IMG/VR virus record: IMGVR_UViG_3300002514_008566 | Location: 1 to 40,246 of that record | DNA from: a virus | Length of the DNA: 40,246 nucleotides | Direction: 5' to 3' (one strand) | Shown: one piece after another, positions 1-30,900 of the stretch | How the letters are laid out: every line of letters starts with the position of its first letter | Position numbering within the stretch: the stretch's first letter is position 1 | The notes under the pieces: model-generated | What the model saw: only the letters and a program-made list of their open reading frames with translations | Told to the model about the DNA's origin: nothing | Databases searched by the model: none | Made by a program: the position numbers and the translations under genes

Positions 1-453
1 CAAATATGGTCAATTTATGAAAATTGTGACATATTTCCAGATTTTGTAGAGGATAAAGTTACAATATCGAAAAAAAATGTACTAAGAGGTTTACACGGAG
101 ATAAAGAAACACATAAACTGATTTGTTGTTTAAGTGGTGAAATATTTCTTGCCATTGCCGACATCAGAAGCGAATCTGAAACTTTTGGACAAACCATGAC
201 CTTTCATTTATCAGACAAGAAACCAAAAACTATATTAGTACCGGCAGGATGTCTAAATGGTCATTTGTGCTTATCAGAAAGGTGTTTGTTTTTTTACAAG
301 TGGTCAAAAAAATATAATGGACCCGACAATCAGATAACTGTAAAATGGGACGACCCTCTTTTAGGGATTAACTGGCCAACAAAAGAGCCAATCTTATCTA
401 AAAGAGATCAAGATGCAAAATATCTAAAAAGGAATTTTTTTAGCGATAGATAA
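1..453 (+). CDS. RmlC-type sugar 3,5-epimerase, 5' partial
   Basis: The reading frame is open from the first base and lacks its start, so the gene begins left of the window. The family (dTDP-4-dehydrorhamnose 3,5-epimerase, a cupin) inverts C3/C5 of a 4-keto-6-deoxy sugar nucleotide in the cytosol. Seen here in family order: KNVLRGLHGD (the active-site GLH), KLICCLSGEIFLAIADIR followed by FGQ, VPAGCLNGHLCLSE, a Tyr in FFYKW, and the closing WDDPLLGINWP. The usual PxGxxHGF histidine is Asn (CLNGH), which I believe also occurs in some RmlC relatives, so the substrate may not be dTDP-rhamnose precursor. The next gene follows 23 bases later and is also a sugar enzyme. The family is clear; the exact substrate is not. 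Confidence 0.85.
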   Translation, partial: QIWSIYENCDIFPDFVEDKVTISKKNVLRGLHGDKETHKLICCLSGEIFLAIADIRSESETFGQTMTFHLSDKKPKTILVPAGCLNGHLCLSERCLFFYKWSKKYNGPDNQITVKWDDPLLGINWPTKEPILSKRDQDAKYLKRNFFSDR

Positions 454-476
454 GATTGTAAAACAAAGGAAAAAAC

Positions 477-1643
477 ATGATAAAGTACCCACTAGCAAAA
501 GAAACAATAAATAACAATGATATCGACGCACTTTGTGATTGGTTGAAAACATACCCAAGACTAACAAAGGGCGAACTAACGTGGAAAGTAGAAGAAAAGT
601 GGGCTGAATTTATTGGTACCAAACACGCAGTTTTTAATAATTCAGGCTCATCTGCAAACTTACTAATGGTTTATGCCGCCATAGCAGCAGGAAAAATTGA
701 AAATAAAAAAATTGCTGTTCCTGCAGTTGGATGGGTTACTACAATTTCTCCTGCAATACAATTCGGGTTAACCCCAATTATGATTGGCACGGATAAAAAT
801 ACGTATGGCATGGATCTAGACCATCTAGAAGAAGTGTGTAAAAAAGATAAACCAGATGCAGTAATATTTGTTCAAGTATTGGGTGTGCCACATTATAAAA
901 AAAGGTTGTTGGAACTGAAAAGGAAATACGGTTTTTGTCTTTTAGAAGATGCATGCGCCGCCCTCGGCGCTGGATATAAAGATGGAAGCAAAGTTGGCAC
1001 AATTGGAGATATGTCATCCTTTTCTTTTTATTTTGGACACCAGCTTTCTACAATTGAAGGTGGAATGGTTAACACAGACGACAAAGAACTTTATGACACC
1101 CTTTTGATGCTAAGGTCTCATGGTTGGGGTAAAGATTTAGATCAAGAAACATATGACAGCATGATAAATGAGAATGGAGTGGACGATTTTCACAAGCCTT
1201 TTACTTTCTTTATTCCTGGTTTTAATTTACGAGCAACCGATCTTCAGGCCTTTATAGGTTTGCGACAAATAGAGAAAGCAAATTGGGTAGCAAAAAGAAG
1301 AAATGAAAACCATTTAAGATACGCAGATAATCTCAAGGGCTATGTAGAGTTTCAAGACTGGGGTGAAAATTACCCAGTTTCCATTTCTTTCGGGGCTTTA
1401 GCAACATCCAGTGAACATAGAAAGCAAATTGTTAATAGGCTTGTTAAAAATGGAATTGAAACAAGAATATACAGCGCTGGAAACTTAGGCCGCCACCCAT
1501 TTTGGACTAAAGAATATGGCTTGTTTGAGGATGAAACGAGTGACAAAATCCATGAAACTGGATTTTTTTTGCCAAACTACCCAGAATTGACGCCCGAAGA
1601 AATCGATTTCATATGTGATGTTGTAAGAGGAAAAGAAGCTTGA
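477..1643 (+). CDS. ColD-like sugar 3-dehydratase (DegT/AHBA fold, PLP enzyme)
   Basis: 388 residues with the DegT/DnrJ/EryC1 aminotransferase fold: NNSGSSAN near residue 54 (cofactor phosphate), EDACAALGAGY with Asp158 (pyridine nitrogen), and FSFYFGHQLSTIEGG at 182-196. In aminotransferases of this fold the residue eight before the second Gly of EGG is the Schiff-base lysine. Here it is His188. That change defines the 3-dehydratases such as ColD, which remove the C3 hydroxyl of GDP-4-keto-6-deoxymannose on the way to colitose; as I recall, E. coli ColD is also about 388 residues with His188. I therefore call it a dehydratase, not an aminotransferase. It starts at ATG after AAAGGAA and its TGA overlaps the next gene. 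Substrate (GDP- or other NDP-sugar) is inferred. Confidence 0.85.
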   Translation: MIKYPLAKETINNNDIDALCDWLKTYPRLTKGELTWKVEEKWAEFIGTKHAVFNNSGSSANLLMVYAAIAAGKIENKKIAVPAVGWVTTISPAIQFGLTPIMIGTDKNTYGMDLDHLEEVCKKDKPDAVIFVQVLGVPHYKKRLLELKRKYGFCLLEDACAALGAGYKDGSKVGTIGDMSSFSFYFGHQLSTIEGGMVNTDDKELYDTLLMLRSHGWGKDLDQETYDSMINENGVDDFHKPFTFFIPGFNLRATDLQAFIGLRQIEKANWVAKRRNENHLRYADNLKGYVEFQDWGENYPVSISFGALATSSEHRKQIVNRLVKNGIETRIYSAGNLGRHPFWTKEYGLFEDETSDKIHETGFFLPNYPELTPEEIDFICDVVRGKEA

Positions 1644-2371
1644 AAATACTCATAATTGGAGAGAGTTGTAAAGATGTTTTTAGCTATGGCGATTGTAAAC
1701 GATTGTGTCCCGAAGCCCCCGTTCCAGTTTTTAATCTTTTAAAGACCATAGAGAATGGTGGGATGGCAATGAATGTTAAAAACAATTTGGAAACTTTAGG
1801 AGTTGATGTTAATTTGCACACCAATAAGAATTGGCGCCAAATAACTAAAAATAGATTTATTGATCTAAAAACAAATCACATGTTTATGAGATTAGACTGC
1901 GGTGATGATTTATATGGAAAAAGCTCAGTTCATAAAATTAATTTTAAGAAATACGCCGGCGTCGTTATATCAGACTATAACAAAGGATTTTTAAGAGAAG
2001 AAGATATTAAGCACATATGTTCTCAAAATGAAAATACGTTTTTAGACACTAAAAAAGTTCTAGGTGACTGGTGTTTAGATGCGAAGTTTATTAAAATCAA
2101 CTCTCAAGAATATGAAAAGACAAAGCCCACTTTAACACAAGAGATAGAAAGTAAAATTATAGTAACAATGGGTCCGAATGGTTGTTTGCACAACGGCATT
2201 GTATATCCAGTAAAAGAGGTAGAAATAAAAGATGTCTCCGGCGCCGGAGATACGTTTATTGCTGGGCTTTCTTATAAGTTTTTAGAAACAAGAGACGTGG
2301 AAAAGTCCATAAGCTTTGCGAACGATTGCGCCACCACGGTAGTGCAGAAGCGAGGAGTAAACACGCTATGA
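1640..2371 (+). CDS. HldE-type sugar kinase (PfkB/ribokinase family), compact
   Basis: It resembles the kinase half of HldE/RfaE, which phosphorylates C1 of D-glycero-D-manno-heptose 7-phosphate in ADP-heptose synthesis. Visible: CPEAPVPVF (residues 23-31, HldE-like S/CPEAPVPV), NGGMAMNVKNNLETLG (39-54), SDYNKG (111-116), IVTMGPNG (174-181) and the PfkB signature DVSGAGDTF (198-206) with catalytic Asp204. At 243 residues it is about 70 shorter than the HldE kinase half, with loss mainly in the lid/middle region. The start is TTG at 1640, giving KILIIGES at the expected N-terminus; AGAGG lies nine bases upstream, TTGA overlaps the upstream stop, and the next in-frame ATG would delete the substrate region. 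Translational coupling to the dehydratase and to the transferase at 2368 implies one pathway. Confidence 0.85.
   Translation: MKILIIGESCKDVFSYGDCKRLCPEAPVPVFNLLKTIENGGMAMNVKNNLETLGVDVNLHTNKNWRQITKNRFIDLKTNHMFMRLDCGDDLYGKSSVHKINFKKYAGVVISDYNKGFLREEDIKHICSQNENTFLDTKKVLGDWCLDAKFIKINSQEYEKTKPTLTQEIESKIIVTMGPNGCLHNGIVYPVKEVEIKDVSGAGDTFIAGLSYKFLETRDVEKSISFANDCATTVVQKRGVNTL
2352..2357 (+). promoter_or_regulatory. Ribosome binding site deciding the transferase start
   Basis: GAGGAG lies ten bases before the ATG at 2368, inside the end of the kinase gene. It supports 2368 over an in-frame upstream ATG at 2326, which would add 14 residues with no family similarity. Confidence 0.7.
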
Positions 2372-2766
2372 AAAGGGTTTTTACAAATGGTTGTTTTGAT
2401 GTTTTGCACAAGGGCCACTTTAAACTTTTAGAATATTGTAAATCCCTTGGATATGTTATTGTGGGATTAAATGGTGATATTAGTGTAAAAAAACTTAAGG
2501 GATTTTGTAGACCAGTGAACGCGGAAAATGATAGAAAATATATGCTAGAATCATGTAAGTTTGTAGATAGGGTCGTGGTTTTTAATGAAAAGACACCCTA
2601 TGCTTTAATAAAACACTTAAAGCCTGATATAATCGTAAAAGGTGGTGATTATAAAAAAGAAGATGTAGTGGGAAATGATGTTGCTGAAGTAAAAATATTT
2701 GATTATATCGATGGGTATTCTACCACTTCAATGATAAAACGAGGGAAAAATGATATACGTTTTTGA
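2368..2766 (+). CDS. HldE-type nucleotidyltransferase (cytidylyltransferase-like)
   Basis: 132 residues. In the family this transfers a nucleoside monophosphate onto a sugar-1-phosphate or alditol phosphate; in HldE it makes ADP-D-glycero-D-manno-heptose. Visible: FTNGCFDVLHKGH at 5-17 with the HxGH catalytic motif (His14, His17), NDRKYML at 54-60, PDIIVKGGDY at 86-94 and the C-terminal YSTTSMIKR at 117-125, matching the STS-x-I segment of HldE. ATG overlaps the kinase stop as ATGA. In enterobacteria the two activities are fused as one protein; here they are adjacent coupled genes in kinase-transferase order. ADP versus CDP specificity cannot be read from sequence; glycerol-3-phosphate cytidylyltransferase is the main alternative, made less likely by the neighbouring kinase. 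Confidence 0.85.
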   Translation: MKRVFTNGCFDVLHKGHFKLLEYCKSLGYVIVGLNGDISVKKLKGFCRPVNAENDRKYMLESCKFVDRVVVFNEKTPYALIKHLKPDIIVKGGDYKKEDVVGNDVAEVKIFDYIDGYSTTSMIKRGKNDIRF

Positions 2767-3067
2767 TATAGATGGAACCATATGCACAAACTCAAATGGA
2801 GATTACAACGCGGCGGAACCCTTTCAAGAACGAATTAAAAAAGTCAACGAGCTATATGACAAAGGAAATAAAATAATTTTTCAGACTGCGCGCGGCATGG
2901 GCCGCACTAACAACAACGTGATTAAAGCTTATAAGCTGTTTTATGATTACACTAAAAAGCAGCTTGATGAGTGGGGAGTTAAATACCATGATTTGTTTTT
3001 GGGAAAACCGGAGGCTGATATTTTTATAGATGACAAGGGAACACACGATGGCGCCTTTTTCGATTAA
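2750..3067 (+). CDS. Small HAD-superfamily phosphatase
   Basis: 105 residues. HAD motifs are complete: FDIDGT (Asp6 nucleophile, Asp8), TARG (Thr46), a Lys at LGKPEAD (Lys86) and IDDK (Asp94, Asp95). The short cap-less form is typical of small phosphatases in capsule and LPS loci. A phosphatase acts between the kinase and transferase steps of ADP-heptose synthesis (GmhB role), so its place directly after both genes suggests it removes the C7 phosphate here; that is inference from context, as it is shorter than GmhB. It starts 17 bases inside the transferase gene, with GAGGG just upstream, and overlaps the next gene by 20 bases. Confidence 0.8.
   Translation: MIYVFDIDGTICTNSNGDYNAAEPFQERIKKVNELYDKGNKIIFQTARGMGRTNNNVIKAYKLFYDYTKKQLDEWGVKYHDLFLGKPEADIFIDDKGTHDGAFFD
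3035..3040 (+). promoter_or_regulatory. Ribosome binding site deciding the cupin start
   Basis: AAGGGA sits seven bases before ATG 3048. An in-frame ATG at 3030 has no comparable site and adds six residues before the conserved N-terminus, so 3048 is preferred. Confidence 0.6.
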
Positions 3068-3404
3068 ACATGTTGAGAAAGGGTGGGGACATGAAAAATG
3101 GATTGTTAACAAGCCCGAATACTGTGGTAAGCTTCTTTATTTTAAGAGCGGCAAGAGATGTTCTTGGCATTATCACAAAATTAAAGATGAAGTATTTTAT
3201 CTGCAGTCAGGGAAACTTTTAGTCAAGTATTCAGACGAAGATAGTTTAGAAGACGCGAAAGAACTAGTTTTATCAAAGGGCGACAATTTTCACGTATATA
3301 CAGGGCTAAGGCATCAAATGATTGCTTTGGAAGATACAGAATTATTTGAATTTTCAACGCAACATTTTGATGAAGATAGCCATAGAATAGTAAAAGGAGA
3401 CTAA
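3048..3404 (+). CDS. Cupin protein, type II phosphomannose-isomerase-like
   Basis: 118 residues forming a single cupin domain that resembles the C-terminal isomerase domain of bifunctional ManC/AlgA enzymes: VEKGWGHEKWIV (9-20), YCGKLLYFKSGKRCSWHYHK (25-44), the metal-site residues His41, His43 and Glu48, the G-rich turn LQSGKLLV, and His89 in LRHQM. The family interconverts fructose-6-P and mannose-6-P, feeding GDP-mannose. That would supply a GDP-sugar for the ColD-like enzyme upstream, but free-standing cupins of this type often have other or unknown roles. It overlaps the HAD gene by 20 bases and closes the sugar cassette; the next gene begins two bases later. Confidence 0.7.
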   Translation: MAPFSIKHVEKGWGHEKWIVNKPEYCGKLLYFKSGKRCSWHYHKIKDEVFYLQSGKLLVKYSDEDSLEDAKELVLSKGDNFHVYTGLRHQMIALEDTELFEFSTQHFDEDSHRIVKGD

Positions 3405-4197: not shown

Positions 4198-4887
4198 ATG
4201 GCCAGAAAGAAGAATTATTATTTTACTAAAATTCATGAACAAGCTATAGTAGATTACTGTTCATCAACCGACCAAAAAGAAAGAAACGAGTTATATAATA
4301 CGCTTATTGGTCCAGCTTTTAGTGAAATGGTAGATAAAATTGTTTATACGTATAAATTTACTAATCTACCAAATTGCGATTACCTTAGAGAAGATTGCAA
4401 AAATTGGTTAATAACCGTATTGAATAAATATGATCCAAACCGAGGCTCTAAAGCTTTTTCTTATTTTAGTGTCATCACAAAGAACTGGTTTATTCATAAG
4501 GTCAAAAAAAATACACAAAAAGCCCGAAGAGAAGTTCTAATTGATGGCTATTGTTTAACAGCCACGCAAGGGAGAATTTTAGATCACCCCTTGGTCACAT
4601 ACAATACTTTTATTGACGATAGTATAAAAAATGAATTTTGGACTTCCTTTAAAGAACAAATAAATAGTTGGGAAAAATTACCTGTTCGTAATAATGAAAA
4701 AAAAGTTATCCAAGCCGTTAAAATTTTGTTTGAAGAGTCTGAAAATATAGAAATTTTTAATAAAAAAGCTATTTACCTGTATATAAGAGAAATTACTGGT
4801 TTAAACACCAAACAAGTTGTAAGTAGTTTAAATAGAATTCGCGCAAGATACAGGGAGTTTAGAGAAAAATGGGAAAAGGAAGAATAA
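4198..4887 (+). CDS. T4 gp55-like late-transcription sigma factor
   Basis: 229 residues. It resembles the sigma-70 region 2 of phage late sigma factors: YDPNRGSKAFSYFSVITKNW at 78-97, preceded by a Cys-rich linker helix (CDYLREDCKNWLITVLNK) and followed by a basic helix (KVKKNTQKARRE). In T4, gp55 replaces host sigma on RNA polymerase and reads the short TATAAATA late promoter together with gp33 and the sliding clamp gp45. Unlike gp55, the C-terminal third (140-229) is a long Lys/Arg/Glu-rich helical region with a possible helix-turn-helix (TGLNTKQVVSSLNRIRARY). It ends 19 bases inside the next gene. The sigma call is good; mechanism by analogy. Confidence 0.75.
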   Translation: MARKKNYYFTKIHEQAIVDYCSSTDQKERNELYNTLIGPAFSEMVDKIVYTYKFTNLPNCDYLREDCKNWLITVLNKYDPNRGSKAFSYFSVITKNWFIHKVKKNTQKARREVLIDGYCLTATQGRILDHPLVTYNTFIDDSIKNEFWTSFKEQINSWEKLPVRNNEKKVIQAVKILFEESENIEIFNKKAIYLYIREITGLNTKQVVSSLNRIRARYREFREKWEKEE

Positions 4888-5178: not shown

Positions 5179-8100
5179 ATGGCGGAATGTGATACGAGAG
5201 CCAACGCTTTCTTAAAACTGCCAGTCGGAACTCTTAATCCTGGCCTTGTCGGCAAGGGCACAACAGACCCCATTATTAAGATTGACGAAGCAGATGTCTA
5301 CGGATATCAAGCCGCATGCAACGCGGAAGCTCTCAAGTCAACAAAATGGCGGGATGCCGGCGCAATCCATGCCATATTGTTAAAAATAATAAATCCGGAC
5401 GGCCCAGAAGCCCAATGTTCAGAAGCCGATATAGTTAACCAAGCATGTACCGCGGAGGAGAACCCTGCACCCAAATTAAATTATTATGTAGTTCGTATTC
5501 CTGAAATGCATGTTTTTGATGTACCTAAAAATTTAGAAAATCCCTGCGAATTAGATGAAAAGTGGATTAAGGCCCATCAAGTTTGTGGGGGCCTTGCGCA
5601 GGCCGTTAACAGAGAAGCCCAAGACAAGCCAGTTAAAGTAGGTCAACCTGTATTAGTTGAGTATGTTTCAAAAGATAATTTAACAGAACTTAAATATTTG
5701 GGCCCAACCGATAAAAATTTTGGCGTAGAAACATTTCCACAGAAAGATGGGCCTTCGTCCCCGCCGGCCGATTATGGAAAACTTCTAGAAGAATGCATAA
5801 AACTATACCCCAACAGAGGCGCCACAGGCGATTTAATTGGAAGCGATAAAAATTTATGGAAATCAAACAGTGGTATACCACCGCTTGTCTCCGGAATAGG
5901 AATTCCAGATAGCCCCATTATTGTGGGAGAAACATACAAAGAGTGGGTTGCAAATTTGTTTCGCAACCTAAAGAAAGAGGGAAAATACAAAGGCTTAATT
6001 TGGACAGGTGTTTGTCAATATAATGGCCCAGAAGATGATCTTCTAATGTTATCAGACAGCGGAAAAAAGACCGCCAACGCCGGCCGCGGCCGCTCCACTG
6101 TCATATATATGCCTATAGGCACAGACCCGACACAACCATTAGAAATAATATATTGGTTTCACGACGCCCTTGGTTTTAAGAACAGCCCAAAAGAATGGAA
6201 TATGCTTTGGAGATCACTAAAGGAGATGATAAAGAAAAAGAAAACTCTTGATGACTCACGCCGCAATTTTGTGCTCGTGGTACCAGAGATGTTGTGGTCG
6301 CAACAAGCCTCAGCCGCCGGCAGCGGAATTCCTCGAAATAGAACTAATGCTACTACTTTATCTCCCGATGAAACAGAGGCAGAGTTGGCTATGCGAACAG
6401 CTGGATATACTGATCGCCAATGGGCAGCCTGGGGATTCACCGGCAAGATTCAATCCCTGTCATATCTTGTTGGGGGCCAGCTTTCGTCGGACCAAGGCTA
6501 CCCAATATCTTGGCAGCCACTTCCCAGCCCGGTATCGGGCAAAGCGGCTGTCCATGGCGACATGAGACTTCTTCATAATGAAGTTGTGGGCTTGCTACAG
6601 AAGCATTTTTCCGTTGCGGGTGAAGGAAATATTGCATATATCACATTGATGGCTAGCGGCAAAGGCGGCACCGCAATATCTAATTTGGCGCGCCTCGGGA
6701 AGTTGGGCCCCGATCCCGACCAGATAAATCCATCAAAAATAGTTTTAATGCATGCCGATTATAGTGCTGTATCTATAGCAAAAGATGTGAGTGGGAGAAA
6801 AATAACTAATGTTTTTCATGATAACGATGCATATGAAATCATAAAAAATATAAGTAAAGACACTCAATTAGAAATACATTTAAGCTGGGCAACCGACGCC
6901 CCGAAATTACCAACTCAAGCTGCCGGCGCATTTATAGGAACGCTTTTTCATGTGACCGGGTTGGTAAATGCATCTACAGACAAAACTTTTGCAAACGCGC
7001 TACAGAAGTTAATTCTATATTATACCCGCAGCGGGGGAGAGGCCAACACGCCAAAGATATTTAAGCGGTCAACGAATATCGGCGCCGTAGAGAACCGGCG
7101 CCCAGACGAGCAAAAATTGCAACAAAAATTTCTTTCTGGGTATTCCTTCCTTAAATCAAAACAGACTAGTACAATTAGAATGGCACCTCCTTTTGATAAT
7201 GTCGTATATAAAGGATGGGGGACCAATTCGGCACTAGGGGCACTTTCATGGCTTCCCGTAACACAGAACATACCAACTAAAGCCGCTATACAACAAACAG
7301 AAAAACAGGCGTCTGAGACACTAATTGATGCAGGGCCAGAAATTCCTTTTAATATCAAAAAGGTATTTAAAAAATTTAATGGAAGAGCAATATTATATAA
7401 ATCTGAGCTTGTTGGCGAATCTAAAACTGTTGCGATATTAGAGCCATACGGAGCTTCTGCATATGAAAGTTATGAGCTTATTTATTATTTACATGGAGAT
7501 ATAGGAACAAACGGCGCAGCTAAGACTTATAACAAGTCACTAGAAAACCAATTCAAACTCATGATAGAAGACAAACGCAATGTAATTATTGTTTTAATGG
7601 ATATAGATCCCACGCCTTCGTCACCCTCTTCGACATTGTGGAATGACGGGACATTCAATAATTTTCATGAAGAAATATTAAATAAAATAGAAGACAAATG
7701 GTTTCTTTTTGTTGGTGGGGGCGGTGTTGCCGGCGCCGGGTACACGAAGTCAACAGCTACTCCTTCGTTTTTTACTATTAAGGCCCATGGAGGCGGAAGC
7801 CGCATGCTTAAACATGCTGTTACTTCTATGAATTCAAAATATTGGTCCGGCGCCAAGAACAGACTCCAAAGAATAGATCTTTATGACGCCAACTGGGGGC
7901 CAGATTTAGCTATAGTGAATATGTTAAAAACCAAACAACAAATTGCGCTTGGTGAAAATTTTGAAATTCGATTAATAGTCACCCCAAAGTTAATCGGCGA
8001 CGATAAAATATCAGCGCAAGTACAAGCGGTTAAACACATCGCGAATGAAACCCCCGGGGTTTGGATACTAAATTCGTCAGCGGATCATGGTATTTTACCG

Positions 8101-9171
8101 TATAGATATTTTTCCGAGCCCACTAAATTAAATTTTGGCATACCACAAATTCCAGTGCCTGGAGAAACTCCACAGTATGCAACGGATTCGTCTCCACCCG
8201 GATCCGCCACCTGGGCCCCAATATCATTAGTATTTGACCACAATGGAAAAGCGTATGCATCGGCCGGCCCTCCATACTATGGAAAAGCTATGCCAGAATA
8301 TGATTTAAAACTTACTTCTTTCTATAAAGGCAAATTAGCAAATCACACACCATCAACAGGAGAGATTGATAAAACTAGACATTGTCAAGTGGGCTCTCGC
8401 CAAATAAAGTACACTACTAAGACTCCAGCGTTGGACACTTTTTCAACAACTCAAAATTGTAAAACAAATCCATTAGGGCTGTTGCAATACGATACATCTC
8501 AATTTACTAATATTGCAATAGATCCCGTACAAAAAGGATTTTCGTGGGGTTCTGTTGAAGCTGGTAAATATTTAAAAGGTATTGATGACGGCATATGGAC
8601 ACAAACAAGCCCGCGCACCACATGGGTTGTTAAAGATATTTCTCCTGAAAATGCTAATGGTGTCGATAGAGTTAGCAGTACACATTCTTCACATAGAGAG
8701 GGCATAGATTTAGATATAAAATTGCCAAAAATAGACATGTCAGGAGAAGCGCCAACCCCGGTTCAAACATTTAAATTAGAAACTCTTAAAGCGCAGGAGC
8801 TTGATGTGGATAAAACACTTGCATTTATGATTTTATCAAAGCTTTATGGTGCAAAAGTTATCTTTTTGGATAAGAAATTTTTTAAACCCTTACGAGAGCG
8901 AGCAAATTTTATTGCAACAGATGGCTTTTCGGCCACGACACCAAGTAGTATTTTAGTCATGGACCAAGCATTAAAAGCGCTTTTTAAAGAACATCTTTAT
9001 GGAAAACCAAACTTTGCTAAAGAGCTTATACAGCTGTTACGCCACAAACGACGGTACGAAGACCATTTCCAAGTGAGAGTTTTACGCAAGTGGGGCTCCC
9101 ACGAAACAAGAGACTATCCAGGGTGGGCAATTAAACGTTTGAAAAAAATGGGTTGTGATTATGGACTATAA
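5179..9171 (+). CDS. gp5-like baseplate hub/spike with C-terminal M74-like endopeptidase domain
   Basis: 1330 residues. (1) Residues about 60-180 look like the gp5 OB fold of the central spike: a beta strand HAILLKII, NYYVVRIPEMHVFDVPKN, then VGQPVLVEYVSKDN. (2) Residues about 300-570 and 740-990 each resemble an alpha/beta-hydrolase: IIYWFHD (His328) with MASGKGG (Ser493), and IYYLHGD (His772) with KAHGGGSRML (His870 at the usual Ser place) plus ADHGILP (His970). (3) Residues about 1080-1330 resemble MepA-type murein endopeptidases: SSHREGIDLD (His1172, Asp1179) and DHFQVRV (His1296, Gln1298 where His is usual). The role would be cell-wall piercing and digestion at infection. OB and peptidase parts are fairly sure; hydrolase parts are tentative. 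Confidence 0.7.
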   Translation: MAECDTRANAFLKLPVGTLNPGLVGKGTTDPIIKIDEADVYGYQAACNAEALKSTKWRDAGAIHAILLKIINPDGPEAQCSEADIVNQACTAEENPAPKLNYYVVRIPEMHVFDVPKNLENPCELDEKWIKAHQVCGGLAQAVNREAQDKPVKVGQPVLVEYVSKDNLTELKYLGPTDKNFGVETFPQKDGPSSPPADYGKLLEECIKLYPNRGATGDLIGSDKNLWKSNSGIPPLVSGIGIPDSPIIVGETYKEWVANLFRNLKKEGKYKGLIWTGVCQYNGPEDDLLMLSDSGKKTANAGRGRSTVIYMPIGTDPTQPLEIIYWFHDALGFKNSPKEWNMLWRSLKEMIKKKKTLDDSRRNFVLVVPEMLWSQQASAAGSGIPRNRTNATTLSPDETEAELAMRTAGYTDRQWAAWGFTGKIQSLSYLVGGQLSSDQGYPISWQPLPSPVSGKAAVHGDMRLLHNEVVGLLQKHFSVAGEGNIAYITLMASGKGGTAISNLARLGKLGPDPDQINPSKIVLMHADYSAVSIAKDVSGRKITNVFHDNDAYEIIKNISKDTQLEIHLSWATDAPKLPTQAAGAFIGTLFHVTGLVNASTDKTFANALQKLILYYTRSGGEANTPKIFKRSTNIGAVENRRPDEQKLQQKFLSGYSFLKSKQTSTIRMAPPFDNVVYKGWGTNSALGALSWLPVTQNIPTKAAIQQTEKQASETLIDAGPEIPFNIKKVFKKFNGRAILYKSELVGESKTVAILEPYGASAYESYELIYYLHGDIGTNGAAKTYNKSLENQFKLMIEDKRNVIIVLMDIDPTPSSPSSTLWNDGTFNNFHEEILNKIEDKWFLFVGGGGVAGAGYTKSTATPSFFTIKAHGGGSRMLKHAVTSMNSKYWSGAKNRLQRIDLYDANWGPDLAIVNMLKTKQQIALGENFEIRLIVTPKLIGDDKISAQVQAVKHIANETPGVWILNSSADHGILPYRYFSEPTKLNFGIPQIPVPGETPQYATDSSPPGSATWAPISLVFDHNGKAYASAGPPYYGKAMPEYDLKLTSFYKGKLANHTPSTGEIDKTRHCQVGSRQIKYTTKTPALDTFSTTQNCKTNPLGLLQYDTSQFTNIAIDPVQKGFSWGSVEAGKYLKGIDDGIWTQTSPRTTWVVKDISPENANGVDRVSSTHSSHREGIDLDIKLPKIDMSGEAPTPVQTFKLETLKAQELDVDKTLAFMILSKLYGAKVIFLDKKFFKPLRERANFIATDGFSATTPSSILVMDQALKALFKEHLYGKPNFAKELIQLLRHKRRYEDHFQVRVLRKWGSHETRDYPGWAIKRLKKMGCDYGL

Positions 9172-21992: not shown

Positions 21993-24900
21993 ATGAGCAC
22001 AAATTATAAAAAATTATTTGGTCAAAAAGATATTATTTTAACAAATGAGAGCAGAGAAGCGTTAGGGTCTGAAGTAGAATCTGTTGCGTATATGACAGAA
22101 TATTTCAACAAGAAAGAAAAATTTATTCCCCCTATTGATTTTTCTCAGCCGAAACATTTTGCTCGCTTTGGGTCCGCAGAAAAATATTATATTGACGCAA
22201 TCGATTCAATTTATAAGACATATCCTTATGATGGCTCGCTAAAAGAACGCATCCAATGGGAATTAAGTTCATCTTATTTAGATCTTTATATTTTTGAAAA
22301 TAATTATCCTCGAACTAATGGGTACGTTGTTTTTTCTAGTGAAGGATGGGGCACCCAAGCGGCTTTATCGGACGGATACGGGGCCCCACCCACATCTTCA
22401 TATGAATATATTTCTATACAGGGCGGCCCAAACACTTCCCAAAGAACAAAAGGAAAAGATATTCAAGATATCACTGGTGACTACAAAAGCGGCTATGCAA
22501 ATATATGGGAGCCTTCTAAAAATAGAGAATCAAATCTTAAAATAGGTGGCATTGATGGTAATACCGTTGAATTTTGGTTGAAAAAAGATGAATTTTTAGG
22601 TGCCTCATTAACTAATCAAGAAGTACTTTTTGATTTATATACAAACAATTTTGCCTCTTCAAGCGCAAACTATGGACGCCTGACTATAGAATTAACATCG
22701 GCCGCGAGCGGCAGTCCTTTTAAAGCTACTTATATGTCTGGCACCTCTGGTTTTTCAAATGAAATAATCGGCAGTAATATAACAGTTTCATCGGTGACAG
22801 ACAATAGTTGGCATCACTATGCATTCACTTTTAAGAACACTGGTAGCAACATTGAAGTTAATTTATTTGTTGACGGGGTATGTGATGAAACCATCATCAC
22901 CGGCTCATCGATTGATTATGTTAGCGGCAACATTAATGCAGTTATAGGCGCCTTGGCCACGGCCCCCTCTGGCACCAACTATCCTACTTTGGGATGGGGC
23001 AAGCTATCCGGCTCGTTAGATGAATTCAGATTTTGGAAAACCGCGCGCACATCTCAACAAGTTGGTAGATATTATATTGAGCCAATTGGAGGCGGCACGA
23101 ATACAGATGACGCCAACACTGCGCTAGGGATATATTATAAGTTTAATGAAGGCATTACACTGACATCCTCAGTTGATAATACTGTTTTAGATTATTCCGG
23201 AAGAATTAGTAATGGTAACTTTATAGGATACAATTCTTCTGCTCGAAGTACTAATTCTGCTATGGTTGAATCAGGAAAAGTTACAAAAGAATTTAAAGAC
23301 CCAATTTTGTATAGTTTCCACCCAGAGGTCCTCACCCTTAGAGAAACAAAAAAGAACGAAGGGCAAGTTTATGATTATTCAAACAATGCAGCGATTTATC
23401 ATACATTGCCAAATTGGATTTTGGATGAGGATGAAAACAAGGAACACACTCCATTAAGAAACCTTACTCAAATTATTGGTAGTTACTTTGATTCTTTAGC
23501 AAATCAAGTATGGGCCCTTCCAAAATTAAAACATAAAAATTATTTAAGCTCAAGCTTTAAGACCTTTCCATTTTCTGATAGGTTATTAGAATCTGTTGGC
23601 TTTTCGTATTTTCCTGAATTATTTTCTGATGCCACCGCGCTAGCACAGTTTAGAAATAGAGAAGATAAATCACTTTTCAAACAAAAACTATATGAGGTTA
23701 AGAACCTCATTTATCAAAATATATATAATAATATTGTCTATATTTATAAGACCAAAGGAACAGAGAAGTCTTTTAGAAATCTTATTCGTTGCTTTGGGTT
23801 CGACAACGAAGTTTATAAAATAAATTTATATGGCAACCGCGTAACTTATCAACTAAAAGATAATTATAAATCAATAGCAGAATTCAAAAAATACATAAAT
23901 TTTACATTAACTGGAACATACGGAGCAACAGTGTTTCCAGTTTCTTCAAGCAATAATCCGAACTCTACATCATTCATCTCTGGAACAACCAACGAGCGCG
24001 ATTATATGGCGCTTACAATGGAAACAGAAACTGCATTCCCGATCCGCCATAGCATGGCAGATTCTAATACGGCAGTCCAATCCAGTGAGGGTTCAAGTAA
24101 GTCTTTTAGAGCATATGAGCCGTTTAGAACCGCCTCTCTTTTCGGAATGCACCAGGTGGGTGGGACTACCGAGAATGATTTAACATGGGCAGCAACCGAC
24201 TATGCAAATTTTCAAGTTTATGCCATCAGAGATAGCGATTTTTCAAAGAGATGTTATTTTAAATTAACCGGTGTCGGATCAACAACTATGCCGACTCTAA
24301 CAAGCAGCTATTTTGATGAAGTATTCGATGACACCCGCTGGACTTTTTCTGTGGCGATCCGGCCCAATATTTATCCATCGGCAGATCTTCCGTCTGCTAG
24401 CAGCACCAATGTTACTTCAACTGGCTACCAAGTAGAATTTTATGGAGTAGAAAAAGTATTAGACACCACTAAAAATGAATTTTTCTTAACATCCACCATC
24501 AGTGCCACAGATGGCCAAAGGTTTCTTAACAATCCAAAAAGTATTTATATCGGAGCCCACCGCCTTAACTTTTCTGGTTCGCTGCAAGAACAATCGGATG
24601 GAAATATTTCGTCCACTAGAGTTTGGTTATCACACTTAGCCACAGGCACAATACAGCAGCATGCCCAGGACGTACAAAATTATGGAGTGCCAAGCCCTTA
24701 TAAAAGTGCATATCTATATCAAACTTCGATGGCTGGAACTCGCGTACCAGAAATTCATACACTAGCATTAAATTGGACTTTTGATACTTTAACTGGTTCT
24801 GATTCCAGCGGCGAATTTATTGGGGAAGATTTTTCATCTGGTTCTACCAGTCTACAAAACCGCTATAATTGGATCGGAAACATTATAGGCAAACAGTATT

Positions 24901-27900
24901 TACCAAAAGGCCACAGCTTTCCTGCCAGTTTTTCTGGTTCTATTAACAGAAAATATGTCTATTCAGCAAAAAAACAATTACCAGAGTTTATTAATAGCTC
25001 AGATATGGTTAAGGTTTTGACCGATGATGATATTTCTTTTAATAAAGGCGACCTACTTAGACCAACGAATTATTACATGTATATTGAAAAAAGCATGTAC
25101 CAATCTATTTCTGAAGAAATGATAAGAATGTTTTCCTCAATCAAAGATTTTAATAATTTGATTGGAGAGCCAGTAAATAAATATCGTGACAAGTACAAAC
25201 ACATGGAAAAGCTTCGTGAGCTTTTTTTCGAGAGAGTAGGGAACACACCAGATTTAGATAAATATATTGATTTTTATAAGTGGGTTGACCAAACTTTAGA
25301 TGTACTTCTTGGTTATTTGGTACCCGCCTCAGCAGATATTAGTGATCAACATGGAAGCAATATTCGCACACTAGTAGAGAGTCATGTTCTAGAAAGAAAT
25401 AAATATAAATGGCAATATCCAACGATAGAAGATAAACAATCAGTACCCGAAGGAAATATACTTGGCATTAATGAACTTTTATATGATTGGGAATATGGCC
25501 ACGATCCCCTTCTTAGTAACACTCAATCTGATAAGTGTCTTTGGTGGAAAGACAGGGCAGAAAGAACAGACGCTCTCGCAAGTGGCGATCCAAGCGTTGA
25601 TAGCGACAAACAAGCAATGCTTGATTCCATCAACAACGAGACGAACGCCAAAGATTATATGCTTTATGATAATGCAACTAGCACAACTTATTCTGGCTCT
25701 ACATTTGTAACGCGCCGATTAGCCAAACCATACAAACTTAAAGTCGATGAATCTCGTACGATCAAGGGCGGATCGAATTATTATCCGAATAAAAATTATA
25801 ATTTCAACCTAGTCAAGGCCCGAAAAGAGACTGGTTTGATGTCTTTTGTTTGGTCTTTGAACTACTTTGATAACTTTAAGAATTTTGCTTCCGTGGCGCC
25901 CCTTAAAGACTGCAATGACGACTTAGGTTTAGGGAAAAAGCGCAAATGGACCTCACAAGCGACGGGACCGGGGACTGCCCGGGGATATTACGATAGAGCG
26001 AAAGGTGCTATATTGATGCCATTCAGTTTGTATAGTTCGTCTATTGACGGGGGGTATCATGATACAATTGTAACAAATTTTATGTCGGGAGCCGACATCA
26101 CAAACCTCCACAGCGATATTTATGGTTTTGACAAAGAAGTCCCCACGCAAAGCCCGTTTACAGAAAAGTTTGTTGGGGGCCTCCAGTACAGACACGCCGC
26201 TTTAAACACTGGGTCAGATGAAAGGAGCAATCGTGCGGAGGGGTGGATCCTCAAGGTACCCTCGACCTCACCAACGATCCAAATGCATGGCGTAATGGGC
26301 CAGGATCCATTTGCACTATACTATAGAGACGAAATAGCCAAACGCCCCGTAAATATTAGAAACATTCAGCAAACGACGGCTTCAAATCTAACAAATATTG
26401 GCAATTATACCAAAGATTATGAAGTTTTAATGACCAACGGTCGTTCAATCAACAATCGATATTTCACTAAGAATGAAGGCATTTCTGCGAGTTCGGTAAG
26501 TTCCCAGGTCATAAGTGGCGTTTTAGATTACGGTCTCCCAGGCACTTCGCAATCACAAAGAGGCCGACAAGAAGTTGTTATAAATGGCTTAACTTCCACC
26601 GCGCGCAATGATTATATCATTGTTAATAGGTTCTCTGCACCTGGAGACCCATCAACAATGGGCTTCGCCTTTTTGGATATCGAATCTCAAGAGTATTCAG
26701 TATACAATTCTTTGCCATGGCGCAATTTAATTGTTCGCGAGAGCCTCCAAGAACTACTAACAGACCACACAAAACAATTTGGATACTTTAGTGATACACA
26801 AAACTCTGCAAGTTATGTTTTAGCAGGAGAGACTTATCCCGGCACAAGCGGGTCTGTGAGCGTTCTAAATTATGCAAGTACCGCGTCGTTTCATAAAGTT
26901 AACAGAAATGCAGTAAGAACAATAAGCTTGACAGAGGATACGGCCAACTTTTCTAATGAGAAATATATTAAGTTTGTATCTTCAAGTTTTCAGTATCTTT
27001 CTGGTTCTACCGGTACCAATGTAGGGGTTGGAACTAAGTTTACATTTTCTGCTTGGATCAATCCCACCGTGACAACTGACGGGTATAATGTTATTGCGTC
27101 TCTAGGGGACTACGGCACTCCACAAAACTCGCGATTTTATGTAGCTCTTTACGATGATACCAACCCTAGAGTTTCAGCATGGGTCTCCCATCAGGGAGGA
27201 GCTACCGGAAAAGAGTATTTCACTCCGGCAGATTCTATTACTGATAATATATGGCAGCACATTGCAGTGACGTTTAATAGCGTTACTCAAGACTTTAATA
27301 TTTATATAAACGGCGCCACATCTCTTCCGTACACTGCAACAGAGGATAATATAGCAAGACTTGCTGACAGCAGCGCGCCACTGATTTTTGGAGCCATAGC
27401 TGTGAATGAGGCTCTAGGGTACAATTATAACGGCTCTATGGATGAAGTGAGCTATTGGAATGTGGATTTAAGCCCCGCGGAAATTAAAGAAATTCATGAC
27501 GGCGATTCTGGTCTTTATGGCGCCTTTTCTGGCCCGGGCAATTTAAACACTCACTCGAAAGCGGCAAATCTAATTTCGTGGTGGCGAATGGGTGATAATT
27601 ATTATGATGACGTTACGCCTGGAATTCCCGATGGTGTACAAGACGGGGGAATAAATGACAACAACAACGACCTAGGAGTCCCCAACGCCAATTACCCAGC
27701 TTCTTCTTCTGTAAGTTATCTCACAGGCGCCTCCCACTATCTTACCGAGGAAGGCCCAAAAAGAAATGACAATTGGTTTGTGCAGCATCAGATTCCACAA
27801 ACTGATTTACAATATCAATGGATTACCGCTAGTGTTATGAATGGCTATAATGGCGCAGCACTTTATGGTTTTGAACAGCCAGATTTTAGCAATGCAAGCT

Positions 27901-30900
27901 TGGCCTCCACAGACATTACATTTGTATCGCAAAGCCAAATTGAAGATGCGAATGGAAATAAAGTTGATTTTGCTGGAATAAATACGTTAATTATTGATCC
28001 GATTACAAGCACCTCGAATACATTAAGTTCATCTGATGGATATCTGGGCTATAGCAACAATTTAATCGGCGCCGGCCTTGATCCATCTCAAATTTTAAAT
28101 GGTTTAAATCTCCACCGACACGGCCCTTATGGATGGGCCTCTTGGCAACAAACGCGAGGAAGCGATAACCCCATAATCCGAACACACAGAAAAGAAAACA
28201 GACAATCATTTTTAAAGCTAGCTTTAGAAGGCACAGCGTCTGGGAAAGTAAAGTTTAAAAAGACTATAGTTTCTCAAATTGAGCCGCCAGTTACATCTAA
28301 GTTTAAGCCATTCAAACACGACCTAATAATAAAAGAAAACTACAAAGCTGATTCTCCCACAGCACCAATAACAATTAGACACACTTACGGGAATGAAAAA
28401 AATTGGTTTCCTCAAAAAGTATCGGGCTCATTAGATTTAGATAAAGAAAGTTTTGTCTATATACTAGCCGGGCAAATTGGGCAATCAATTACTCAAGTGC
28501 CAAAGACTTTAATTTATGATTCTTTAAATCATTTTATTTTAAGAAAAGATATGAGTGGCTCAGTTGCAAATCCAGTTAGTAACTTTGTAAATATGACTTT
28601 GGGACAAACAATTTATCCTCGGGAACACTACACTTATTTGAAAAGCACAAGACAGCGAGACAATTTTCAAAATGGATTTTGGAGAGACGCTAGGGCCGAT
28701 CGATATCGCTACAACACGAGCATCAACTCACAGGGCCCGTCAGCGTCCACGTTCTCTCCCGGGGTCTACCGATCCGATAGTATCTGGCCACTAGATGCAC
28801 GCACAGACTTTCTTACTGGCGGCACATGGATGGCTTCTTGTGAATCATTGTATGGTTTTCTTAGTAACTGCACAACGAATGATCCCGGCGAGCTACAAAA
28901 TATTTATACCATCTTCCCACAGGGCATGTACTACGGCGGCCTGTACCAGTACACTCTTGGAAATGCCGCGGCCACATATTGTCGAGCGGTTCCGGAACTA
29001 TTTCCAGGCGCTCTTTTTACCGGTGCGCTGGACTCCCCGGGAGAAATACACGGAGGCCAAACACTTTGGGAAGCCGGCTCCCAAGCTGGCATCAATCCTT
29101 TTTACGATTCATATGAATATTATATTGAAGATTTAAAAAGACTAGGCAAAGATTATGGAATCATACCAGAGTTTAGAATTAGTGAACATATGGATTTTTA
29201 TGTTAACAACAATCCAAAAGCAACAGAGAACTTTTTAGTCGATAATCCTAATTTTCTTACTTTAACTGGATCAACTCTTTCTAGCAGCGGGGACTCTTCT
29301 TTTTATACAGTATATTCAACGAGCGATTTTATGGAACATTTTAATCAAGTTCGAAGTGATTACGTAAAAACCGCGGTTCCCACCGAACTTAAGCTTGAAT
29401 GCAAAGGACTAATGAAGTTTTTACCATATGATGGTTTTTATCCCGCCCAGAGAACATTACAACTGGCAACATTATTTAGCTCATCTTATGCGGACAATAT
29501 TACAATTGATGCCAAGATCCCTGGCTCGTGGCACAGGTGGATTTGGTCGGGCGTGCTGAAACCCATATTATCTCCTGGAATATTATATAATTCAATTAAA
29601 TCTGGAATCTCTGTTGATTATCCTATAACGGATGTCTCCGCGACTACAGTAACAGGTAGTGCTCGGTTTGGAAGTGGAGATGGGGGCGATCCGCGCTTTA
29701 GTGGTTCGTTTGCCTCTCGGGTACCGTTTGAAGCGCTAGCCAATCCGGATTATTATTTGCGTGGAAGACTAATCGAATCCAGAGAACCATATCCACAATC
29801 TGGACCCTACTTATCGCAGAGCTGGGGCTCAGCTAGCATCGGCGTCGCAAAGAACCCACTGTATCGGTATGCAATGAATAACTTTTTAGCTGAGACCCCA
29901 TCATTTTTCTTACAGGGCGGTAGCCTCTCTACCATATCTTCAAGGCCAGACACAGATATAATAACTGTTCAAAAAAATAAAGAATATAAGATGAGAATTG
30001 TTGTAGGCCACTCAAAGTGGGATAATTTAGAAAATTTAGAAAATTCGTACCTCGAAGCTTCTCAGCAGCGCTCATATGATAGTCTTTCTTACGACTATAA
30101 CCCACCCACTATAACGATGTATAACCGTGCTTTTAATCGTTCAACTAAACAAGATTATTCATCTAGCTTTGTAGGTGTGAGTGGAACAATGCATGCCTAT
30201 GGGTCATCTTTTGGACCTCCTTGTGCCGCTTCTTCTTCATACGGGTATGAAGCTAGTTTTGAGCCTTTTACACCCCCTTATTATAACGGCTATAGCCATA
30301 TTGAAGTTACATATACCTCCGATATTGGGGGCGAAACACCAATAACTGAAATATTGGCCGGCGCCCAAGAAACGGCCACCTACTTCCGAGAATGTACTCG
30401 ATTAGGTTATGCTGGATCCACGGCCGCCGCTAGCGCAATGCAGCTTTCCTCTTCTTTAAATTGGAATCAACTTGTTACAGACCCGGTATCCGAAACACAT
30501 AAATGGGTGATACAACCCAAATGGGAATGCCCCATACTAGACTTTAATAGTGCTGATATTACATTGCCAATTACTGGGTCTGGATCGGTTGCAAAAGGAA
30601 TGTGGCATCAATACGGCTCTATTCCAAATCCTGGCTCCGGAGTCTTCTTAACACTCCAGGATGTAACAGGCTCAGAATCACTGCGAGATCTTGTAGGCAT
30701 GGACGCTAGACAGTTAAAGTTGGGTCGAATCCCAGAAGAGGGTAAAGAAATCTCCGAAGCCATTGTTGCAATACCGTTTTGGGCAATGAGTAGTAACACT
30801 AAAGGATATTTTAGAATCCACAGACAAACAATTGATTGGGCGAATGCTGCACTAAGGCCACCACCACCAGCGCATGCCGCCGAACCTAATTACTGGGTCG

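Follow-up and report, generated by a model that had tools for sequence, protein, structure and literature searches.

Of the 42,808 bp of a virus record (IMG/VR, IMGVR_UViG_3300002514_008566), the window analysed here takes in bases 1 to 40,246, base 1 being also the end of the record. It opens with six genes which, as an earlier note on this DNA had it, are tightly coupled and lie upstream of late sigma and tail genes: the six open reading frames (ORFs) are real, all are on one strand, and at four of the five junctions neighbouring frames share 4 to 38 bases (Table 1). The first two genes resemble those for a 3,6-dideoxy sugar, while the other four form a predicted set for an activated heptose. 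The last of these encodes a cupin that most likely acts as a sedoheptulose-7-phosphate isomerase, replacing the unrelated SIS-fold enzyme GmhA. Domain and PHROG searches place the sigma gene and tail and baseplate genes (gp25 family, gp6-like) downstream of the six. No genes for GmhA, short-chain dehydrogenases/reductases (SDRs) or glycosyltransferases were seen on the window side of the contig edge, and the window likewise lacks a gene for HldD.

Table 1 Genes at the left end of the window, with the best support for each assignment
Feature	Position	Strand	Support
RmlC-like NDP-4-keto-sugar epimerase	1..453	+	PF00908 3.8e-36; 5' end cut by contig edge
ColD-like PLP/PMP-dependent C3-dehydratase	477..1643	+	best PDB match ColD 2gms 8e-54; His188
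Short HldA-like heptose-7-phosphate kinase, 243 aa (predicted)	1640..2371	+	rfaE_dom_I 2.5e-31; GAGD motif; AF2 model
HldC-like heptose-1-phosphate nucleotidyltransferase (predicted)	2368..2766	+	rfaE_dom_II 4.2e-43
Small HAD phosphatase (EcbF/BcbF type), proposed GmhB-like role	2750..3067	+	TIGR01689 2.1e-11
Cupin, proposed sedoheptulose-7-phosphate isomerase in place of GmhA	3030..3404	+	Cupin_2 7.8e-8; AF2 model; cellular fusions and operon swaps
Late sigma factor, gp55-like, conserved downstream neighbour	4198..4887	+	phrog_234 4.6e-7
(NDP, nucleoside diphosphate; PLP, pyridoxal phosphate; PMP, pyridoxamine phosphate; AF2, AlphaFold2)

The dehydratase belongs to the DegT_DnrJ_EryC1 family (4.6e-66). 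Its residue 188, which aligns with the catalytic His188 of ColD, is a histidine here and in 61/61 relatives, the substitution for the PLP-lysine that is the hallmark of ColD-type enzymes. The epimerase, a member of dTDP_sugar_isom, has the RmlC/FdtA-type cupin fold with its His-Tyr dyad (His32 and Tyr99, both of which are unchanged across 33 relatives). Together, the ColD-like enzyme would strip O3 from an NDP-4-keto-6-deoxy sugar and the RmlC-like enzyme would epimerise it to give a 3,6-dideoxy sugar. In the L054 group of relatives, and only there, genes for GMD and a GDP-fucose-synthase-like (Fcl-like) enzyme adjoin that for ColD, and GDP-mannose is therefore indicated as the substrate in that group.

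The kinase is a PfkB protein for which rfaE_dom_I is the best NCBIfam model (109 bits). The GAGD motif is invariant among its relatives, and the seven best PDB chains for its structural model (predicted confidence, pLDDT, 94.8) are all HldA. For the nucleotidyltransferase the nearest family is clearly rfaE_dom_II (146.6 bits), and the GxFDxxHxGH motif is invariant. At the position of the so-called STTR5 motif, where promiscuous heptose nucleotidyltransferases have GRSTT (PMC11573728), it reads GYSTT; since the arginine is missing, a preference for the ADP series is predicted. The HAD protein (best-matching PDB entry 9iqw, 7.8e-20) has intact and invariant catalytic motifs (DIDxTIC, TAR, KP..D....DK). 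No GmhB model is found among its domain matches, and it falls instead into the EcbF/BcbF group of capsule phosphatases. The identities that the earlier note gave to these five enzymes (RmlC-type epimerase, ColD-like 3-dehydratase, HldE-type kinase and transferase, HAD phosphatase) thus agree with the domain searches. Its suggestion that the kinase, phosphatase and transferase run late steps of NDP-heptose synthesis also fits, as a prediction from sequence and fold, HldA and HldC being the nearest models and folds. In the related cyanophages S-SM2 and P-SSM2 an SDR (T4-GC 308) scores as HldD-like, at 207–210 bits (cut-off 274.6) and far above other models. Those phages would therefore have every step to ADP-heptose except a recognised isomerase.

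The cupin would fill this gap. It possesses the metal site of metal-dependent cupin isomerases, three histidines and one glutamate (His47, His49, Glu54 and His95), invariant in 59 sequences, and its model (pLDDT 95) has D-lyxose isomerases and phosphomannose isomerase among its closest folds. In annotated marine-phage records, presence of the kinase always implies presence of the cupin (31/31). GmhA, which the earlier note proposed to look for to the left of base 1, seems to be missing altogether from such phages: the SIS_2 profile has no match in 50 phage records, the complete S-SM2, P-TIM68 and P-SSM2 included. This absence would be accounted for if, as we propose, the cupin takes the GmhA step. 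The same note had read the cupin as a sign of a deoxy sugar made from GDP-mannose, which was not supported, and a role in the GDP-mannose pathway was rejected as far as the window is concerned, because there the cupin keeps company with the kinase and the other heptose genes. Some soil-bacterial relatives of the cupin do adjoin a GMD-type gene (L130), and a GDP-mannose role may hold for another subfamily.

How the six genes belong together can be judged from relatives gathered with two queries. The dehydratase retrieved 53 viral loci (at most 84 % identity) and the kinase 24, and three contigs are common to both sets (L004/L028, L005/L035 and L006/L042). By ORF clustering, the order ColD-kinase-nucleotidyltransferase-HAD-cupin-(small ORFs)-sigma is seen again in dozens of related contigs and hence is not due to chance. 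The left part of the relatives' cassettes is highly variable and includes SDRs, glycosyltransferases, thiamine diphosphate (TPP) and radical SAM enzymes, PanB, a sulfotransferase and an NDP-sugar dehydrogenase. With the right part conserved and the left part variable, what the window shows is therefore just the right-hand end of such a glycan cassette. All four heptose-type genes occur in 33/53 ColD loci and none of them in 9/53, while ColD is not seen in 19/24 kinase loci, counted over the fetched stretch, which is short in some cases. The annotated phages S-SM2, P-TIM68 and P-SSM2 carry the four-gene set without an adjoining ColD. Since each set occurs apart from the other, the dideoxy-sugar and heptose genes are separable, and we propose two modules, one for a 3,6-dideoxy sugar (RmlC-like and ColD-like enzymes) and one for NDP-heptose (kinase, nucleotidyltransferase, HAD and cupin). 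Of the two products that the earlier note offered as "and/or", both fit, probably as two sugars; their users would be glycosyltransferases encoded to the left of the contig edge. The sugars might be destined for the host surface, the virion or DNA.

An alternative would merge the modules into a single hybrid pathway, in which the ColD-like and RmlC-like enzymes act on the phage's own NDP-heptose: once dehydrated, it would be 3-deoxygenated by the former and epimerised by the latter, and the product would be a 3,6-dideoxy-heptose of the kind known from Campylobacter jejuni HS:5. There is a precedent with the same kinds of enzymes in C. jejuni, where a 4,6-dehydratase and a reductase work together with a PLP-dependent C3-dehydratase and a His/Tyr-dyad epimerase to make GDP-3,6-dideoxy-heptose (PMC10440746), and the RmlC, ColD and heptose genes are neighbours in the window and in many relatives. 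However, Campylobacter starts from GDP-alpha-heptose whereas HldA/HldC-type enzymes yield the beta-ADP series, and the GMD and Fcl-like genes of the L054 group indicate GDP-mannose. Above all, the modules separate (in the 9 ColD loci and 19 kinase loci mentioned above), and for this reason we consider a single dideoxy-heptose pathway unlikely. The boldest form of the idea is less probable still: it joins a second, unrelated class of phosphoheptose isomerase in phages, Patescibacteria and DPANN archaea to a ColD/RmlC pair that makes a new 3,6-dideoxy-heptose nucleotide for a phage-built glycan.

The reaction of the cupin is best approached in cellular genomes. A profile search of GTDB found it in uncultured bacteria and archaea. 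In a parcubacterium (L118) the gene order is GT9 heptosyltransferase-cupin-HldA-HldC/GmhB fusion-HldD, and no SIS gene was found in this genome, a single 0.7-Mb assembly. A woesearchaeote (L161) encodes cupin and HldA as a single ORF of 436 residues, followed by GmhB; in its phylum, of which 279 genomes were surveyed, HldA::cupin fusions number seven, and a GmhB::cupin::HldC fusion occurs once. In a second phylum (Patescibacteria, with 380 genomes in the survey) six genomes have the cupin either next to HldA or joined to it in one protein, both domain orders occurring among the fusions; five of the six have no match to SIS. In trees the cupins are poorly resolved and the heptose-linked ones are scattered, L118 lying among the phage sequences with a support of ~90. 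More distant cupins, not near heptose genes, are found in Patescibacteria (L235-L254) and Binatota/Myxococcota (L104-L144), and these probably act on other substrates.

Cupin and gmhA also tend to exclude each other. In 76 archaeal genomes with HldA, the cupin (counted within ~1 kb of HldA) is present in 16, SIS (within 6 kb) in 36, and both in none. Anywhere in the genome, SIS is found in 1/16 cupin genomes versus 43/60 of the others (Fisher p = 2.4e-6, genomes being counted regardless of kinship). The HldA tree shows switches between the two states, with at least five changes of the cupin label forced by starred branches. Close relatives differ in just this gene of the operon: G146 has cupin-HldD-HldA-GmhB-HldC where its starred sister G253 has gmhA-HldD-HldA-GmhB, and G082 and G071 have cupin-HldD-HldA-HldC/GmhB where G168 and G234 have gmhA-HldD-HldA-HldC/GmhB. 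SIS, too, is found fused to HldA, both matches lying in one open frame in G125, G145 and G277. The cupin operons hold all the other enzymes, and therefore only the isomerisation of sedoheptulose 7-phosphate is left for the cupin. From the swaps, fusions and linkage observed we infer its reaction, and the genomes suggest that cupin and gmhA are a case of non-orthologous displacement.

The cupin could in principle assist the heptose pathway in some other way, for instance as an anomerase or epimerase, with heptose 7-phosphate supplied by the GmhA of the host. The cupin fold is indeed functionally broad, bacterial hosts may carry gmhA, and a few phages have the cupin but lack the kinase. Nevertheless, a helper would be expected alongside gmhA and not as a substitute for it, whereas most cupin genomes are devoid of a SIS gene and the archaeal cupin takes the very slot of gmhA while HldD, HldA, GmhB and HldC stay. 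Such a role is thus rather unlikely. It is also unlikely, to much the same degree as the hybrid pathway, that the module works on a different phosphosugar (e.g., another ketose phosphate converted to a non-heptose NDP-sugar) or that the cassette is largely non-functional filler. This would agree with the short, divergent kinase and nucleotidyltransferase, both under curated cut-offs, with the placement of the HAD among capsule phosphatases and not with GmhB, and with the "stuffer DNA" raised by Sullivan et al. 2010 (PMC3037559). Yet HldA and HldC are the nearest models and folds, and phages of diverse kinds all retain the catalytic residues. Cellular relatives of the cupin, for their part, are found together with GT9 and HldD in heptose operons of the canonical type, and the cyanophage sets include an HldD-like enzyme.

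Several observations weigh against the cupin as the GmhA-step isomerase. Oxalate decarboxylase, KdgF and CapF match its fold as well as sugar isomerases do, and since these other cupins score equally, the fold search alone does not single out an isomerase. The kinase and nucleotidyltransferase score below the NCBIfam equivalog cut-offs (109 versus 345 and 147 versus 181.5 bits). Four phage records contain the cupin without a detected kinase, the cupin is not seen at 9/68 kinase loci (partly because of contig ends or a missed ORF), and three loci (L007, L026 and L027) have neither cupin nor SIS. Many cellular relatives are not located close to heptose genes, and other functions may therefore occur within the family. 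In the archaeal set, one of the 16 genomes with the cupin carries SIS as well, the metagenome-assembled genomes are incomplete, which bears on gene absences, and a kinship-corrected swap test on starred branches gave p = 0.25 with only three independent contrasts and was underpowered. All in all, we give a probability of roughly three in four to the reading that the window shows the right end of a two-module phage glycan cassette in which the cupin would serve as the isomerase of the GmhA step; the product and its use in the infected cell are likewise inferred.

Some other features of these phages may be mentioned. The psbA gene is absent from 17 long contigs of the window's group and present in S-SM2 and P-SSM2; because of this absence the host of the group is probably not a cyanobacterium. 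Upstream of ColD, five loci (L029, L035, L047, L049 and L055) have variable cassettes that include a B12-binding radical SAM protein, an acetolactate-synthase-like TPP enzyme and an E1 alpha/beta-like TPP pair, as well as ketopantoate hydroxymethyltransferase, DJ-1/PfpI and SPASM radical SAM proteins, and branched-sugar chemistry is possible there. At L044, L054 and L074 a sulfotransferase and an NDP-sugar dehydrogenase accompany GMD and GDP-fucose-synthase-like genes, possibly for a sulfated, uronic-acid and colitose-type phage glycan. In the window itself, the T4-type late promoter TATAAATA is no more frequent than expected by chance, with no occurrence upstream on the + strand. A structural protein of 3,224 residues (21993-31667) has two lectin-like Laminin_G_3 stretches. 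A protein of 1,330 residues (5179-9171) has no match in Pfam or PHROG, and its C-terminal SSHREGIDLDI resembles, as judged by eye, the motif of MepA-type murein endopeptidases.

To our knowledge, every known phosphoheptose isomerase is the SIS-fold zinc enzyme GmhA, which is a drug target. If our assignment is right, the cupin would explain how heptose could be made by uncultured archaea and Patescibacteria in which no gmhA is detectable, and some marine phages encode all that is needed to turn a pentose-phosphate intermediate into ADP-heptose. ADP-heptose is an agonist of ALPK1, although nothing seen here connects this marine phage with an animal host. Two misleading database labels would also be corrected: in NC_006883, NC_015279 and NC_028955 the HAD is called phosphoheptose isomerase and the cupin cysteine dioxygenase or nucleotidyltransferase, and both look misassigned. 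Heptose-type genes of phages are already known. Cupin-fold sugar isomerases have been named in a general way for cyanophage clusters, with neither a substrate nor a link to GmhA (Iyer 2021, PMC7824862), and no assignment of a cupin to the GmhA step was found in the open-access literature, which did not cover the primary paper of Tang et al. (2024). As far as this literature shows, the role of the cupin is new, and the enzyme class probably is as well.

Compared with the bacterial ADP-heptose pathway (GmhA, HldE/HldA, GmhB, HldC, HldD), the phage set shares an HldA-like kinase, an HldC-like nucleotidyltransferase, a phosphatase and, in related cyanophages, an HldD-like SDR. It differs in having a cupin instead of SIS-type GmhA, a phosphatase from a different HAD subfamily and, in the window, a kinase ~70 residues shorter than standard HldA. 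With cupin aldose-ketose isomerases (D-lyxose isomerase, cupin phosphomannose isomerase) the cupin has in common the barrel and the three His and one Glu ligands, but identity is only ~20 % and its genomic context points to sedoheptulose 7-phosphate. The GDP-colitose pathway of E. coli O55:H7 likewise has a C3-dehydratase with His188, and GMD and Fcl-like genes adjoin the ColD-like gene in some relatives; in the window, by contrast, the partner is RmlC-like, and the 4,6-dehydratase and reductase would lie beyond the contig end. Heptose biosynthetic enzymes have been reported outside bacteria, viruses and archaea included (Tang et al., Science 2024, by way of the commentary PMC11573728). That commentary mentions no cupin isomerase, and the GYSTT of the window enzyme lacks the arginine of the promiscuity motif described there. 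The closest counterpart is the cyanophage cluster T4-GC 304, 305, 306, 307 and 308 of P-SSM2, S-SM2 and S-SSM7, whose genes were noted in 2010 as co-occurring, with no function assigned (Sullivan et al. 2010, PMC3037559). It has the same nucleotidyltransferase, kinase, HAD and cupin families, the cupins being 58–70 % identical. Its genes were listed as lipopolysaccharide genes and, unlike them, those of the window belong to a group without psbA in the 17 long contigs; the present reading would give the cyanophage genes a function.

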